From: Crocinitomicaceae bacterium
Lineage (GTDB): Bacteria; Bacteroidota; Bacteroidia; Flavobacteriales_D; Crocinitomicaceae
NCBI GenBank assembly: GCA_029251865.1
Contig: JAQXCN010000008.1
Coordinates: forward strand, 1 to 64,000
DNA length: 64,000 nt
Direction: 5' to 3'
A model generated the notes under the pieces. It did not search any database. It was not told the origin of the DNA and was given only the letters and a program-made list of their open reading frames with translations. Made by a program: the position numbers and the translations under genes. Position 1 is the first letter of the stretch; the number at the start of each line of letters is the position of its first letter. Below, one piece after another: positions 34,952 to 42,339 of this stretch.

Positions 34952-35527
34952 ATGTTTTTAGAGCAGTTTCCGATTCAAAATAGATCTAATGGATGGATTG
35001 AAGTGATATGCGGCTCGATGTTTTCTGGTAAAACAGAAGAGCTTATTCGAAGACTAAGAAGAGCAGAGTTTGCTCGTCAAGATCTCGTGCTATTCAAACC
35101 ATCGGTAGATATACGCTACAGCGACAAAAACGTTGTGAGTCATCGTGGTACTGAATTCAATGCGGTGTTGGTCGAGAATTCAAAAGAAATCTTGGCAGCT
35201 GTTAAGAATCAAAAAGTTGTCGCGATTGATGAAGCCCAGTTTTTTGATTCACAATTGGTCGAGGTGGCCTCAGAGCTTGCAGGCCGAGGCATTAGAGTGA
35301 TCCTAGCAGGATTGGATATGGACTATACGGGCGCGCCTTTTGGCCCAATGCCCGCGTTACTTGCAGCAGCCGAGTATGTTTCAAAAGTTCATGCCATTTG
35401 TGTTTCTTGTGGTAATTTAGCGCAATTTTCAAATCGATTGGTTTCTGATACAGACCAGGTAATGCTCGGTGCTGTCGAAGAATATCGTCCTTTGTGCCGT
35501 TCTTGTTTTAATAAGTCTTCGTCGTGA
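34952..35527 (+). CDS. tdk: Thymidine kinase
   Basis: Phosphorylates thymidine with ATP in the salvage pathway. The 191-residue type II enzyme has the P-loop GSMFSGKTEELIRRLRRAE near residue 22, DEAQFF near residue 92, and paired zinc-binding cysteines (CVSCGN and CRSCF) in the C-terminal part. Its TGA stop overlaps the GTG start of the next gene (GTGA), which implies translational coupling. Confidence 0.93.
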   Translation: MFLEQFPIQNRSNGWIEVICGSMFSGKTEELIRRLRRAEFARQDLVLFKPSVDIRYSDKNVVSHRGTEFNAVLVENSKEILAAVKNQKVVAIDEAQFFDSQLVEVASELAGRGIRVILAGLDMDYTGAPFGPMPALLAAAEYVSKVHAICVSCGNLAQFSNRLVSDTDQVMLGAVEEYRPLCRSCFNKSSS

Positions 35528-37800
35528 ATTTTCAACTTTCGAGTCTTGAACTTGCCCATGTTTTAAAATGTGAGAAGGACACTTTTAATAAGGATTTTAT
35601 ACTTAGTGAGGTTGTCTGCGATACCCGTAAAATCATCAATGGTAAAGGCGTTGTTTTTTTTGCCTTACAGGGAAAATATCGGAATGGAGCGTCGTTTATC
35701 AACGAGGCATACCAAAAAGGAGTTCGTGTATTTGTTTTGCGTCAATTGCCGAACAAAACTTATGATGATGCCATTTATTTAAGAGTGGTAGAACCTTTAA
35801 ATGCCTTAATCGAGTTTGCTGGTTGGTACAGGGAAAAATTTCAAATACCTGTTATAGCAATCATTGGCACACATGGTAAAACGACAATAAAAGAGTGGGT
35901 TGGGTTATTGTTAAAAGAAAAATATCACCTCGTTAAATCTCCGAAAAGTTACAACTCAAAACTGGGAGTCGCTATGTCCCTTCTTGGTCTTCATAAAGAT
36001 GCGGAAATGGGATTGTTTGAGGTTTCTATTACCCAAAAGGGTGAAGGTGCATTATTTAGATCGCTTATTCAACCTACACACACAATCATCTCACATGTCG
36101 GTATTAAACATAATGAGAGCTTCTCATCCACCCAAGACAAACACCAAGAGTATACGGCGTTTTTAAAAGGGTGCGACGTTGTATTCAGAATTGATGATAA
36201 GAACAATGAGGTCAAGGTGGGTAATAAAAATTTAGTTCATTCAAATGCTACGGCTGAGATGCAAGATTTTGGCTTCAACGATAAATTCAAATCGGAAAAT
36301 TCTGCTATTTCAAAAAATGTAGCTTCGTTTTTCGGAATCAAAGTTCCTATTCATTATACTTTTTCTGATCTTGCAATGCGCCTGGAAACCTTTGCGGGTA
36401 TTCATGATTCTTTGATAATAAACGATACGTACAGCCTTGATCTTGAGTCGTTAGAAACAGCTTTGCAGTATCAACTTAATGTAGCCAAGAATAGAAAAAG
36501 GATATTGTTCCTCCCTAAGAGCTTGGAAGAACAGTCTCACCCTTCGGTTAAAGCTTTAATTAAACGCTTTGGGAGTATAGATTGTCGCTACATTGATACT
36601 TTGGAAAGCGATTTGACGTTCGTTCAAAACAGCGTTGTTTTAGTTAAGGGAAATCAGGGTGCTTTTATGAATAAGTTTGCGCACAGCCTAAAATTAAAGC
36701 ATCACAGAACTAAAATAAGTGTAAATCTAGGGGCTTTACGAAATAATATTCATGTTTTAAAAGATTTGATTCCTGATGGCACCAAAAGTTTAGTTATGGT
36801 GAAGGCGAACGCCTATGGCACAGGTCTAATTGAGACCGCTTCCTTTATTGAGGGGCTTGGAGTTGATTACCTTGGTGTGGCATACACTGATGAGGGTGTT
36901 ACACTTAGAGAAAATGGTGTTAAATGTCCGATTCTAGTCATGAGTCCTGGTCCAGACGACTTTCAAGACTGTATTTCCTATGAATTAGAACCTTCAATTT
37001 ATTCATTACAGTTGTTGGATGAGTTCATAAAGCTATTGATTTTGAAAAATAAGGTAGGTTTTCCTATTCACCTCAAACTTGATACAGGGATGCATCGTTT
37101 AGGAATTATACCTAAAGAGATCCCGAATTTTATAGACATTTTAAATACACAACCGGAAATACATTTAAAGGGCGTTTATTCACATTTTTCCGAATCTGAT
37201 AATACAAAAGATCATTCTTTTACCGAGCAACAGTTAGATATATTTGAAGTATCTTGCGACTTAATAAAGAAATATGTTTCCTATCCTTTTATTAGGCATA
37301 TTGCCAATTCAGGAGCGATCGTAAACTATCCGTATGCTTCATTCGACATGGTGCGAATGGGATTAGTGGTTTATGGTGTAACAGCGCATTCGGTTCTCGC
37401 TAAAAAGCTCAAACAAGTCATCGAATGGACGAGCGAGGTTGTTCAAGTTAAAAAACTGAAATTAGGTGATACTATAGGTTATAATCGTGCGTTTACAGCC
37501 CAACATGAAATGGATATCGCCGTAATTCCAGTAGGATATGCAGATGGTTTCAGGAGGGCTCTGAGTCAAGGCAAAGGATATGTGTTTATTGATGGCAAAA
37601 AATGCAAAACGTTAGGAAATGTATGCATGGACATGCTCATGGTTGATATTACAGGAATGAATGTTTTGGCAGGTGCATCTGTTGAGATAATTGGAAAACA
37701 ACAAAGCTTAATGAATTTTGCTTCGCAACTTGAAACGATTCCTTATGAAGTTTTAACCTCCTTATCTTTAAGGGTTCACCGGAATTATATCGTAACTTAG
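35524..37800 (+). CDS. Bifunctional MurF-alanine racemase fusion
   Basis: A 758-residue fusion typical of Bacteroidota: the N-terminal half resembles MurF, which adds D-Ala-D-Ala to the UDP-MurNAc-tripeptide, and the C-terminal half (from about residue 395) is alanine racemase. The ATP loop is IGTHGKTTIKEW (113-124). In the racemase half, VKANAYGTG carries the PLP Lys (K427), and the second catalytic Tyr is in IGYNRAF. The MurF half is short, and its late motif reads NDTYSLDLESL rather than the usual NDSYN. The start is GTG, overlapping tdk by 4 nt. Confidence 0.9.
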   Translation: MNFQLSSLELAHVLKCEKDTFNKDFILSEVVCDTRKIINGKGVVFFALQGKYRNGASFINEAYQKGVRVFVLRQLPNKTYDDAIYLRVVEPLNALIEFAGWYREKFQIPVIAIIGTHGKTTIKEWVGLLLKEKYHLVKSPKSYNSKLGVAMSLLGLHKDAEMGLFEVSITQKGEGALFRSLIQPTHTIISHVGIKHNESFSSTQDKHQEYTAFLKGCDVVFRIDDKNNEVKVGNKNLVHSNATAEMQDFGFNDKFKSENSAISKNVASFFGIKVPIHYTFSDLAMRLETFAGIHDSLIINDTYSLDLESLETALQYQLNVAKNRKRILFLPKSLEEQSHPSVKALIKRFGSIDCRYIDTLESDLTFVQNSVVLVKGNQGAFMNKFAHSLKLKHHRTKISVNLGALRNNIHVLKDLIPDGTKSLVMVKANAYGTGLIETASFIEGLGVDYLGVAYTDEGVTLRENGVKCPILVMSPGPDDFQDCISYELEPSIYSLQLLDEFIKLLILKNKVGFPIHLKLDTGMHRLGIIPKEIPNFIDILNTQPEIHLKGVYSHFSESDNTKDHSFTEQQLDIFEVSCDLIKKYVSYPFIRHIANSGAIVNYPYASFDMVRMGLVVYGVTAHSVLAKKLKQVIEWTSEVVQVKKLKLGDTIGYNRAFTAQHEMDIAVIPVGYADGFRRALSQGKGYVFIDGKKCKTLGNVCMDMLMVDITGMNVLAGASVEIIGKQQSLMNFASQLETIPYEVLTSLSLRVHRNYIVT

Positions 37801-37915: not shown

Positions 37916-38437
37916 ATGAATAAAAGAGTAGAAGCAGCCCTCAACGACCAAATAAAGAAAGAAGCCTCATCTTCACAATATTATTTAGCTATGGCATCAT
38001 GGGCCGAGTCCAATGGTTTGAATGGAACAGCAAGTTTTATGTATACGCATTCCGATGAGGAGCGTTTTCACATGCTCAAACTTGTGAAGTTTGTTAATGA
38101 GCGCGGAGGAAGAGCCGTAGTTCCTCAATTAGAAAAACCACCTCATGAATTTAAAAACTTAAAGAATGTCTTTGAATCCCTTTTAGAACATGAAATAGGT
38201 GTAACAGCAAGTATCAACAACTTGGTTGACATATGTTTACAAGAAAAGGATTACACGACACATAATTTCGTACAATGGTATGTTTCCGAGCAACTTGAGG
38301 AAGAGGCTTTGGCAAGAACAATATTAGACAAGCTCAATTTAATTGGAACAGATTCGGGAGGGATGTACATGTTCGATCGTGATATGGAAAATTCTTTAAT
38401 TCAAGTCACCAATGCGAATGAAGCCTCCGGGCAATAG
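37916..38437 (+). CDS. ftnA: Ferritin
   Basis: A 173-residue non-heme ferritin that stores iron after oxidising it. The ferroxidase residues of bacterial FtnA are visible: Glu in EASSSQYYLAM, EERFHMLKLVKFVNERGG with the Glu and His, EHEIGVTASI and YVSEQLEEEALA. The length and helix pattern are standard. The 115-nt gap before it holds only weak promoter-like AT-rich sequence. The following sensor-cyclase gene starts 11 nt after its stop, so the two may be co-transcribed. Confidence 0.93.
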   Translation: MNKRVEAALNDQIKKEASSSQYYLAMASWAESNGLNGTASFMYTHSDEERFHMLKLVKFVNERGGRAVVPQLEKPPHEFKNLKNVFESLLEHEIGVTASINNLVDICLQEKDYTTHNFVQWYVSEQLEEEALARTILDKLNLIGTDSGGMYMFDRDMENSLIQVTNANEASGQ

Positions 38438-38448
38438 CTTTCAGTCGC

Positions 38449-41400
38449 ATGAAAAAACTCGTATTTCTCATTGCGTTCATACCTTGTTTTCTTGGCGCTC
38501 AATCCGTTTATCGTTTTAACAATTATACGATCAATGATGGCCTTTCTCAAAGTTCGGTTAACACGGTTATTCAGGATGGTAATAGTGCACTATGGATTGG
38601 TACACAAGATGGTCTTAACCGTTTCGATGGCGTAAAATTTGAGATCTTTAATTCAGATGAGAATAAAGGGATTGATAATCCATTTATAACGAGTTCAACA
38701 AAAGCCCAAGATGGTAGTTTGTGTTTTGGAACACGAAATGGCTTGACGGTTTATAATCTCGATAAGGAATCTTTTCAAACATATTCCCCTGAGGGAAATC
38801 AAAACTTGGATATTTCTTCGGTTTGTGCCGGAAAGGGTCAGGATTTATGGGTGAGTACGCTCAACCAAGGCATATTACAATTTAACTTTAAAGAAAAGAC
38901 CTTCAAAAAATTGAGTTGGGGAAATAGCGCAAAAGATATTCTCTCCCTTATCTATTTTCAGGGGGATTTAATTATTCACACAGGCGGTGAAGAATTATAT
39001 GTTTACAATATAGAATCCAAAAGTTTAAAGCGGATCAGGACTGATGTCCTTGGTTTTGAGGATTTTTCTATTTTAAATATATGTTTGGTTTCAGATGAGA
39101 ATATTTATATCGGTTCCAATTACGGTGTTTTTCAGTTGGATACAAAGTCACAATGCCTCCTTCGTGAATTTCAAAATTATCCAGTTTTAGGAACGGCAAA
39201 AATCAAGGATATTTGTTTATCACAAGGCCAATGGTTTTTTGCATCCTTAAATAACGGACTTTACACTATTGACGAAAATGGTGAATTAATTAATAGCACG
39301 CAGGACATGTTCCAAAAGAGTGCACTTATGTACAATAATCTCAGCTTCCTTTTTGAAGATATAAATCAAAAACTGTGGATTGGTAGTGAAAGAGGCATTT
39401 CTAGTTTTGACCCGAAATATTCAGGTTTTATTGGGGTTGGCCCTGGTGCGAACCCAAAAAAAAGCTTGCCTTCTCCGAACGTCTGGACGTTTTCGGAAGA
39501 CGCTACTGCGAAATATTTATTTGTTGGTTCGGATATAGGTATTTCAAGATTAAATAGGGAAACAGGGTTGTTTCAACATTTTAATCGTTGGAATAAAGAA
39601 GCTAAAGCAGGAGAGAAAGAGGGACGGTTTAATGTCCTTTCCTCCTATTGTATAGATTCAACTTTACTTCTCGTTGGTTTCGAAGATGGCCTCTTCAAAT
39701 TAGAAATAGAGGATGAGAAGCTTTTCAAATATACGAGGTTGAATTATGTCAATCCAATACTCTTATCAAAGTACAATCGAATATATGGTATTGAGCATTT
39801 GAATCAAAATAAATACCTTTTAGCCACCAAAGGAGCTGTCTTTTTATACAACCTAGAAACAGGTGATTCTCAAAGGTTTGAACACAATGTAAACCGCCCA
39901 AGTGAGTCACTCTCTCCTGGGGTATGTCGTGTGATTTATAAAGACCGAAAAAATCGTATTTGGTTCGCTACAAGCGCTGGTGGAATTAATTTACTAAGTA
40001 AAAACAAATCAGGGAATTATACGATTAAGCCACATCCGATTAATGCCAAAATTCAAAAAGTATGTAAGGACTATGCAACAGTGTTGTGTGATGATGCTCA
40101 AGGAAACCTTTATTTGGGAACCTATGGCTCAGGAATGCTTTATGTGGATTTAAAATCAGAGACCATAAAGAAAATCAACAAATCATCTGGCTTGCCAAAT
40201 AATATTATTTACGGCATTTTAAACGACGGGAAACGAATTTGGGTCAGCACGAATAAAGGGATTGCATCTTACCGGCCAAATAGTAAAGAGGTGAAATCTT
40301 ATCTCGAGATACATGGATTGGTTAGTAATGAATTTAATTCCAATGCGTTTTTTAGTTCATCTAACGGAGAACTTTATTTTGGCTCAATATACGGTTACAA
40401 TGTTTTTCGTCCTGATGCATTGAACATCGCGGATACTGACCAGGAAGTTATCATTACCAAGTTCAAATTGAATGGAGATTGGTTGAAGCCGGGAGAAGAA
40501 GGATCGCCATTAAAACGGCCAATTGCGAAAACCTCTTCTATTGAACTCCCTTATACAAATAGAAGTTTTACCATTCGGTTTCAAACAAGTGATCTTTCAA
40601 ACCCTGAATTGACACAATTTAAATATGAACTCACAGGCTCAGGCGAAAGGTTCATTGAGAATAATCGTGAAATAACCTTTAATTCATTATCTCCAGGCGA
40701 ATACACACTAAAGATTTATGCTAAACTTGGAGAAGGAGAGTGGAGTTCTAAACCGAGAGTCTTGGAAGTTTCAATCTTGCCGCCTTACTGGGGGACTTGG
40801 TGGTTTTGGACTATTGTTGCTCTAGTTATTTCTGTTTTTGTATTTCTCTTTTTTAGAAGAAGAATTGAAACTGAGCGAAGAGAACAAGTCAAATTAGAGA
40901 TTAAAGTCACTGAAAGAACCCGAGAGATAAGTAATCAGAAAACGCGTATTGAAGAACAAAGTAAACAACTTGAGTTAGAAAAGAACAATGTTGTTCGTCA
41001 ACAGGAACTACTCCAAAAGGAAAAGGACAATGCTGAACGCTGGCTTGCAAATGCGCTTCCTGAAGAGGTTGTTCGTGAATTAAAAGTAAAGGGAAAGGTA
41101 GATGCAAATGCCTTTGATCGCGTTTCCGTTATGTTTACAGATGTCGTTGGCTTTACAAATATTTCGAAGAGAATGCGTCCTAGTCGCTTGGTGAAACGTT
41201 TAGATGTTTTGTTTAGACGGTTTGATGAGATTATTCAAAACAATGATTTAGAGAAAATTAAAACAATTGGAGATGCCTACATGTGTGCCGGGGGAATTCC
41301 AATTGAAAATTCGACAAATCCTATGAATGCCTGTATTGCAGCACTGCACATACAAGATTACATGTCCAAGTTAAAATTTGATGCGATTGCGAACCATAGT

Positions 41401-42339
41401 GATTATTGGGAACTCAGACTAGGAATTCATACAGGTCCATTGGTAGCAGGGATTATAGGAGATTTGAAGCTCGCTTATGATATCTGGGGTCCAACCGTAA
41501 ATCAGGCGCAACAAATGGAGAAGTATGGGGCTCCTGGCGAGGTTACTATCTCGGGCAAAACATTCACTTTTATTGAGCCTTACTTCGAGTGCCTCCACAA
41601 AGGGAAGGTAACTATTAAGGGAGGGCTTGAGGTGGACATGTATGCTGTGTTAAATATTAAAACGGAATTGTCTGAAAAGGGAGAGGGGTTATTTCCCAAT
41701 GAAAAATTTAGTGAGATTGTAGAGCTTCATCATTTTAGCTCTATTAAATATTACAAAACAGAACATTTTGTTTTGGATTACTTGAAAAAGGGCTTATCAG
41801 AAAAACTTCTATATCATTCAGTTCATCATTCCATTGACGTAGTTCAGGCAGTTGAGAGGATCGCTTTGTCCGAAGGAGTGACAGATGAAGGACTTTTTTT
41901 ATTGAAAACGGCTGCGATTTTGCATGATGCTGGATTTGTGAAACAATATGAAAACAATGAGAGCATAGGTGCCGAAATGGCGGCGGAATGGCTTCCTAAT
42001 TACGGATATACAGAGCAGCATATAAAGACAATTGTAGAATTGATACATGTTACAGAAATCCCGCATAAACCGATAAATAAGCTTCAAGAAATTATTTGTG
42101 ACGCGGACTTAGACTATCTGGGGAGAGATGATTTTGAAAAGATTTCAAACCGTTTGCGTTTAGAACTTCGCGGAATGAAAAAATTAGCAAGCGATCGGGA
42201 ATGGGATAAAATTCAAGTTTCATTTTTGAAGAAGCATAAATACTTTACGAAAACATCTATAAAGGCGAGGCGTAAGAAAAAGAAAGAGAACTTAAAGGTC
42301 GTCCAAAAACGCGTTGAAGAAGATGAATATCAAGATTAA
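38449..42339 (+). CDS. Propeller sensor - class III nucleotide cyclase - HD phosphohydrolase fusion
   Basis: A 1296-residue sensor. It has a signal peptide, about twelve two-component-propeller repeats (25-660, e.g. ALWIGTQDGLNRFD), a Y_Y_Y domain (about 700-775), one membrane helix (785-803), a coiled coil (812-865), a class III cyclase domain (890-1065) and an HD domain (about 1120-1245). The cyclase metal ligands are D898 and D942. K938 and D1011 (YDIWG) match adenylate-type specificity, and N1018 is kept, but the transition-state Arg position is Q1022. The HD domain shows H1123, H1159-D1160 and D1218/D1220. The first part is as in hybrid two-component sensors, with a nucleotide-signalling output in place of the kinase. 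The ligand is unknown. Confidence 0.85.
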   Translation: MKKLVFLIAFIPCFLGAQSVYRFNNYTINDGLSQSSVNTVIQDGNSALWIGTQDGLNRFDGVKFEIFNSDENKGIDNPFITSSTKAQDGSLCFGTRNGLTVYNLDKESFQTYSPEGNQNLDISSVCAGKGQDLWVSTLNQGILQFNFKEKTFKKLSWGNSAKDILSLIYFQGDLIIHTGGEELYVYNIESKSLKRIRTDVLGFEDFSILNICLVSDENIYIGSNYGVFQLDTKSQCLLREFQNYPVLGTAKIKDICLSQGQWFFASLNNGLYTIDENGELINSTQDMFQKSALMYNNLSFLFEDINQKLWIGSERGISSFDPKYSGFIGVGPGANPKKSLPSPNVWTFSEDATAKYLFVGSDIGISRLNRETGLFQHFNRWNKEAKAGEKEGRFNVLSSYCIDSTLLLVGFEDGLFKLEIEDEKLFKYTRLNYVNPILLSKYNRIYGIEHLNQNKYLLATKGAVFLYNLETGDSQRFEHNVNRPSESLSPGVCRVIYKDRKNRIWFATSAGGINLLSKNKSGNYTIKPHPINAKIQKVCKDYATVLCDDAQGNLYLGTYGSGMLYVDLKSETIKKINKSSGLPNNIIYGILNDGKRIWVSTNKGIASYRPNSKEVKSYLEIHGLVSNEFNSNAFFSSSNGELYFGSIYGYNVFRPDALNIADTDQEVIITKFKLNGDWLKPGEEGSPLKRPIAKTSSIELPYTNRSFTIRFQTSDLSNPELTQFKYELTGSGERFIENNREITFNSLSPGEYTLKIYAKLGEGEWSSKPRVLEVSILPPYWGTWWFWTIVALVISVFVFLFFRRRIETERREQVKLEIKVTERTREISNQKTRIEEQSKQLELEKNNVVRQQELLQKEKDNAERWLANALPEEVVRELKVKGKVDANAFDRVSVMFTDVVGFTNISKRMRPSRLVKRLDVLFRRFDEIIQNNDLEKIKTIGDAYMCAGGIPIENSTNPMNACIAALHIQDYMSKLKFDAIANHSDYWELRLGIHTGPLVAGIIGDLKLAYDIWGPTVNQAQQMEKYGAPGEVTISGKTFTFIEPYFECLHKGKVTIKGGLEVDMYAVLNIKTELSEKGEGLFPNEKFSEIVELHHFSSIKYYKTEHFVLDYLKKGLSEKLLYHSVHHSIDVVQAVERIALSEGVTDEGLFLLKTAAILHDAGFVKQYENNESIGAEMAAEWLPNYGYTEQHIKTIVELIHVTEIPHKPINKLQEIICDADLDYLGRDDFEKISNRLRLELRGMKKLASDREWDKIQVSFLKKHKYFTKTSIKARRKKKKENLKVVQKRVEEDEYQD

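Follow-up and report, generated by a model that had tools for sequence, protein, structure and literature searches.

Proteins that carry synthesis and hydrolysis of one second messenger in a single chain are familiar from the GGDEF-EAL and GGDEF-HD-GYP families, in which one of the two domains is often degenerate; these proteins act on cyclic di-GMP, and their hydrolase is either unrelated to the one considered here (EAL) or belongs to another HD subfamily. The closest precedent for a cyclase and a phosphodiesterase in one chain is the plant protein known as combined adenylyl cyclase with phosphodiesterase (CAPE), found in liverworts and further streptophytes (PMC5159850, PMC8115329), which joins a class III cyclase to a cyclic-nucleotide phosphodiesterase. 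According to the passages of these papers drawn on here, both activities are demonstrated for MpCAPE (PMC5159850), the phosphodiesterase is N-terminal, class I and eukaryotic, and a propeller sensor is not mentioned. In the part of a 2005 census used here, no adenylate cyclases are recorded for the four Bacteroidetes genomes sequenced by that date (PMC1183210). The gene described in this study lies in a stretch of 64,000 nucleotides, referred to as the window, from a Crocinitomicaceae bacterium (assembly GCA_029251865.1, contig JAQXCN010000008.1, positions 1 to 64,000 of the forward strand). It occupies 38449..42339 on the + strand, as do all features whose coordinates are given below in this two-dot form, and encodes a protein of 1296 amino acids in which an extracytoplasmic sensor is followed by a class III nucleotide cyclase domain and an HD domain. 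In contrast to CAPE, the HD domain is C-terminal and not of class I by Pfam, and both activities are only predicted. The reading favoured here, at a probability of roughly 50%, is that of a one-component membrane receptor that would set the level of a cyclic nucleotide through synthesis and hydrolysis in the same chain.

The open reading frame runs through 1296 codons without a break, and the architecture it encodes is real and conserved. From the N to the C terminus, the protein consists of an extracytoplasmic propeller region with Reg_prop repeats (residues about 20-700, 38506..40548; 63.3 bits in Pfam), a Y_Y_Y domain (residues 717-776, 40597..40776; 37.8 bits), a single membrane helix (residues about 785-805, 40801..40863), a coiled-coil linker that forms a long helix in the predicted model (residues about 806-880, 40864..41088), the cyclase domain (residues 885-1067, 41101..41649) and the HD domain (residues about 1090-1225, 41716..42123), after which the model and the alignment place helices that extend the HD fold and a basic tail (residues 1226-1296, 42124..42336). 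The membrane helix was assigned by eye from the sequence, without a membrane predictor, and is retained in relatives that lack the propeller. The Guanylate_cyc match covers residues 885-1067 with 154 bits (E 4.4e-45, cut-off 21.9) and, together with matches in the PDB, establishes class III homology; the HD match covers residues 1126-1220 with 29.9 bits (E 7.4e-7, cut-off 22).

The outer part is homologous to the solved sensors of Bacteroides hybrid two-component systems (HTCS; PDB 4a2l, E 5.3e-78, and 3v9f, E 1.5e-53), with which the protein shares propeller repeats and a Y_Y_Y domain, followed by a membrane helix and a helical linker. It differs from an HTCS in its output, which is a cyclase and an HD domain, and histidine kinase, receiver and helix-turn-helix or other DNA-binding families are absent from the 12 Pfam families listed for it to E 1. 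The original prediction, made by a model from the sequence, was of an HTCS-type sensor whose kinase and regulator are replaced by a class III cyclase and an HD domain at residues 1120-1245; the Pfam and PDB matches agree with it, and its residue limits and the pair H1159/D1160 were correct.

Public genome contigs yielded 13 relatives, of which 11 are full length and all come from metagenome-assembled genomes of Flavobacteriales or Crocinitomicaceae, and their alignment and domain identities rule out a chance or artefactual reading frame. Among these close relatives the HD domain (residues 1090-1225) is the most conserved part, at 92-98% identity to the window protein (13 rows), compared with 75-97% for the cyclase (residues 885-1067, 12 rows) and 51-84% for the propeller region. 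More widely, a class III cyclase is present in 118 of 120 genomes of the family, and an HD-plus-tail profile, which also counts unfused HD genes, matches 258 of 349 genomes of the order.

Cyclase-HD genes of about 1260-1370 amino acids occur in at least six families of the order (f1, f3, f6, f10, f11 and f13); the propeller and Y_Y_Y domain were confirmed by Pfam in long-form examples from f1, f3, f6 and f13, and the f10 and f11 forms match the window protein at the N terminus. Shorter forms carry a receiver ahead of the cyclase and HD domain (L151, 566 amino acids; L099, 581 amino acids), with no receiver detected by Pfam at E 0.001 in L153 of the same paralogous group, and a GAF-cyclase-HD form (L110) comes from the same class but outside the order. 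Forms in the window's genus and in one other lack the propeller but keep the membrane helix, coiled coil, cyclase and HD domain, and the tree implies at least two separate losses of the propeller. The constant core is thus the cyclase with the HD domain, and the sensor differs between propeller, receiver, GAF and none. A tree built from 73 HD domains groups 39 fused rows in a single clade (support 97/87) and leaves two others (L101 and L110) outside it.

The metal site of the HD domain is strictly kept. All 82 aligned rows, which span many families and both fused and unfused genes, share H1123, H1127, H1159, D1160, D1218 and D1220, although collecting rows by similarity favours such invariance; the rows include a long relative (L131) whose HD domain is missing from the Pfam list at E 0.001. 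The H...HD...D pattern, in a domain above the PF01966 cut-off, identifies a member of the HD superfamily of metal-dependent phosphohydrolases. The AlphaFold model of residues 1077-1290 has a mean pLDDT of 96.1, and VIA-align 2 aligns it with the class I phosphodiesterases PDE10A (Z 18.2, root-mean-square deviation (rmsd) 2.7, 195 residues) and PDE7A (Z 17.4, rmsd 2.7, 198 residues).

Outside the fusions, this HD subfamily is tied strongly and specifically to class III cyclases in other genomes. In a phylum survey the HD profile matched 132 of 395 genomes and, among the matches listed from outside the order, most HD open frames were about 190-470 amino acids long, which leaves no room for a cyclase in the same chain. 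In 28 genomes (loci L103-L130), 12 of the 27 best unfused HD genes have a class III cyclase within 3 kb, where uniform placement would give 0.18; at L103, a TPR-cyclase gene stands directly upstream (about 40 bp) of a stand-alone HD gene of 191 amino acids. A comparison with other HD genes of the same genomes gave the same picture, with a control drawn from the 150 of 250 HD matches listed: a PF00211 cyclase is found within 3 kb of 13 of 44 unfused relatives and of 1 of 135 control HD genes (Fisher p 3e-8), and within 11 kb the counts are 20 of 44 and 1 of 135. The genomes are related and hence not independent, but the contrast is still large. Such clustering points to a role in cyclic-nucleotide breakdown, and the subfamily is likely, judging by sequence and gene order, to be a cyclic-nucleotide phosphodiesterase.

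In the cyclase domain, the residue table shows D898, D942, K938, D1011 and N1018 all in place. We take D898 and D942 to be the two metal-binding aspartates of class III cyclases and K938 and D1011 to be the adenine-selecting Lys/Asp pair typical of adenylate cyclases, so that both sets are complete in the window protein, and we take N1018 to act with an arginine four residues later as the transition-state residues.

In the favoured reading, a periplasmic ligand would bind the propeller/Y_Y_Y sensor, and the membrane helix and coiled coil would relay the change to a class III cyclase acting as a homodimer, which would make a cyclic nucleotide, probably cAMP judging by its residues. The fused HD domain would hydrolyse the same nucleotide at the same place, and the sensor would set the balance of synthesis and breakdown, so that the signal would stay local or limit itself; such a receptor could be the self-resetting switch that the original prediction read from the sequence. 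Support for the reading comes from the domains and the sensor homology, the retained cyclase residues and the invariant HD metal ligands; from an HD domain more conserved than the cyclase, HD genes that sit near cyclases, and sensors that vary while cyclase and HD stay together; and from the alignment of the HD model with class I phosphodiesterases and the presence of both activities in one chain of plant CAPE.

The observations that weigh against this receptor concern the cyclase, the identity of the hydrolase and the target of the signal. In the cyclase, Gln1022 (codon 41512..41514) stands in place of the transition-state arginine found in active class III cyclases, so the canonical Asn and Arg are not both present, the domain is assigned to the cyclase family and not as a proven active cyclase, and synthesis by the window clade may be weak. 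Of 74 fused cyclase-HD rows, the window excluded, 58 have Arg at this position, 15 have Gln and one has a gap, and all 42 cyclase rows without HD have Arg; in these counts some loci were entered twice and some genes are partial. Glutamine is limited to a 12-row clade that includes the window (support 100/100) and to three sister rows that join it with weak support (80/70). This distribution raises a serious rival for the window clade, in which a crippled cyclase would act as a module for dimerisation or nucleotide sensing and leave mainly a sensor-gated phosphodiesterase, for which GGDEF-EAL proteins with one degenerate domain offer a parallel. It would also fit an HD domain held at 92-98% identity while the cyclase falls to 75%, and a cyclase/HD divergence ratio of 1.70 in the window clade against 1.25 in the Arg-bearing long forms of the family. 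The ratio is, however, mixed (the other Gln group has 0.93, and two small Arg groups with three pairs each have 1.21 and 0.58), the remaining active-site residues are kept, and the domain is strongly constrained, with a non-synonymous divergence (dN) of 0.03 to the two closest kin; dN is given alone because synonymous change had reached saturation in 24 of 25 comparisons of domains. The window's genome has only one match to the class III family (PF00211), so that no other class III source of signal is available and the lineage depends for class III synthesis on a cyclase of possibly reduced activity. On balance, we consider the crippled cyclase unlikely, at about half the weight given to a receptor with two opposed enzymes.

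For the HD domain, assignment to the class I cyclic-nucleotide phosphodiesterases (PF00233) was rejected, as PDEase_I scores 12.2 bits against a cut-off of 24.8. Foldseek returned nothing at E 0.001 or better with the HD model; its top hit is YpgQ (TM-score 0.62 by query), followed by 2pq7, with PDE4D lower-ranked at similar TM-scores. VIA-align 2 places 2pq7 at Z 17.0 (rmsd 3.8, 165 residues), tied or nearly tied with the phosphodiesterases, and a sequence-profile comparison puts 2pq7 (E 3.4e-9), Lin1889 and YedJ closest among solved structures, while class I phosphodiesterases appear only from E 0.0076; a single-sequence phmmer search of the PDB with this part of the protein found nothing. 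Because PDEase_I stays below threshold and the fold comparison does not separate phosphodiesterases from other HD hydrolases, the domain is filed in the HD superfamily only. YpgQ is a nucleoside and deoxynucleoside triphosphate (NTP/dNTP) pyrophosphohydrolase, and with closest solved relatives of this type by both profile and Foldseek, the HD domain might act on another nucleotide, for example limiting the cyclase substrate or being tied to nucleotide stress. The specific genomic link to class III cyclases, which is best explained by a shared cyclic nucleotide, makes this improbable. The favoured reading is in turn weakened by the 31 of 44 unfused HD relatives that do not lie within 3 kb of a cyclase. 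That the HD domain is instead a non-catalytic, allosteric nucleotide-binding module is highly improbable, given that every metal ligand is invariant in all 82 rows.

As to the target of the signal, the window's genome (G000) has five cNMP-binding-domain matches on contigs C12, C21, C19 and C82 (L015-L019); C19 carries two that nearly duplicate each other at a distance of about 550 bp, and the contig end cuts the second. The canonical CRP cAMP pocket, searched for by motif, is found in none of these five proteins, the best of which is closer to FNR-type regulators than to CRP. In eight other genomes, the strict pocket motif was found in 0 of 30 scanned frames (30 of 55 matches, with the longest frame over each match, at least one of which, L167, is wrong), and the loose motif in one alone (L192), a weak negative in view of the frame choice.

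Taken across the phylum, the HD subfamily may tentatively be regarded as an unrecognised class of bacterial cyclic-mononucleotide phosphodiesterases and a dedicated partner of class III cyclases across Bacteroidota, either as a neighbouring gene or fused under HTCS, receiver or GAF sensors, where it would be the bacterial equivalent of plant CAPE, and also fused to PycTM, YitT-type and TPR modules, with the window clade's sole cyclase, its Arg lost, tilting the receptor towards hydrolysis. One member is fused to a YitT membrane domain and DUF2179 (L105:1480-2937). An HD gene of nearly the same length (L113:625-2079), with domains not scanned, adjoins a receiver-cyclase gene. Another member is fused to the Pycsar effector PycTM (PF18967; L120:856-2109) and would combine a hydrolase with a Pycsar-type effector in a single protein. 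A Pycsar system at the window locus itself was rejected, since no PycTM was found in the eight neighbouring ORFs scanned and PycC matches at just E 1.7e-8 against E 4.4e-45 for Guanylate_cyc.

The genes adjacent to the cyclase-HD gene encode ferritin and methylmalonyl-CoA epimerase. The ferritin gene (37916..38437, Pfam Ferritin) ends 11 bp upstream and is possibly co-transcribed, a link that comes from synteny: each of the 10 window-clade loci with flanking sequence has a ferritin gene immediately before the cyclase-HD gene, and 9 of 20 flanks of long-form genes outside the clade, across several genera, have one just upstream. A connection of the sensor-cyclase-HD gene to iron is possible. 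Further upstream, positions 35524-37800 hold a fused MurF-alanine racemase gene, which adjoins a thymidine kinase gene.

The pairing of a cyclase with a hydrolase is known in plants, and no description of a bacterial cyclase-HD fusion was found in the open-access literature, searched mostly at abstract level; as far as that search goes, it is uncharacterised in bacteria. The same search found no characterised protein of this domain order and little on cyclic-mononucleotide signalling in Bacteroidota, in keeping with what the original prediction had supposed. Its claim of novelty holds to that extent, and is narrowed by the recurrence of the order in several families of the window's order, where it is no rarity, and by the characterised cyclase-phosphodiesterase of plants. 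The locus raises the question of how a lineage without an evident CRP-type receptor uses a sole class III cyclase that lacks the catalytic Arg. It also brings to light a receptor family that is conserved and has a candidate off-switch built in, together with a subfamily of candidate phosphodiesterases recognisable by sequence.

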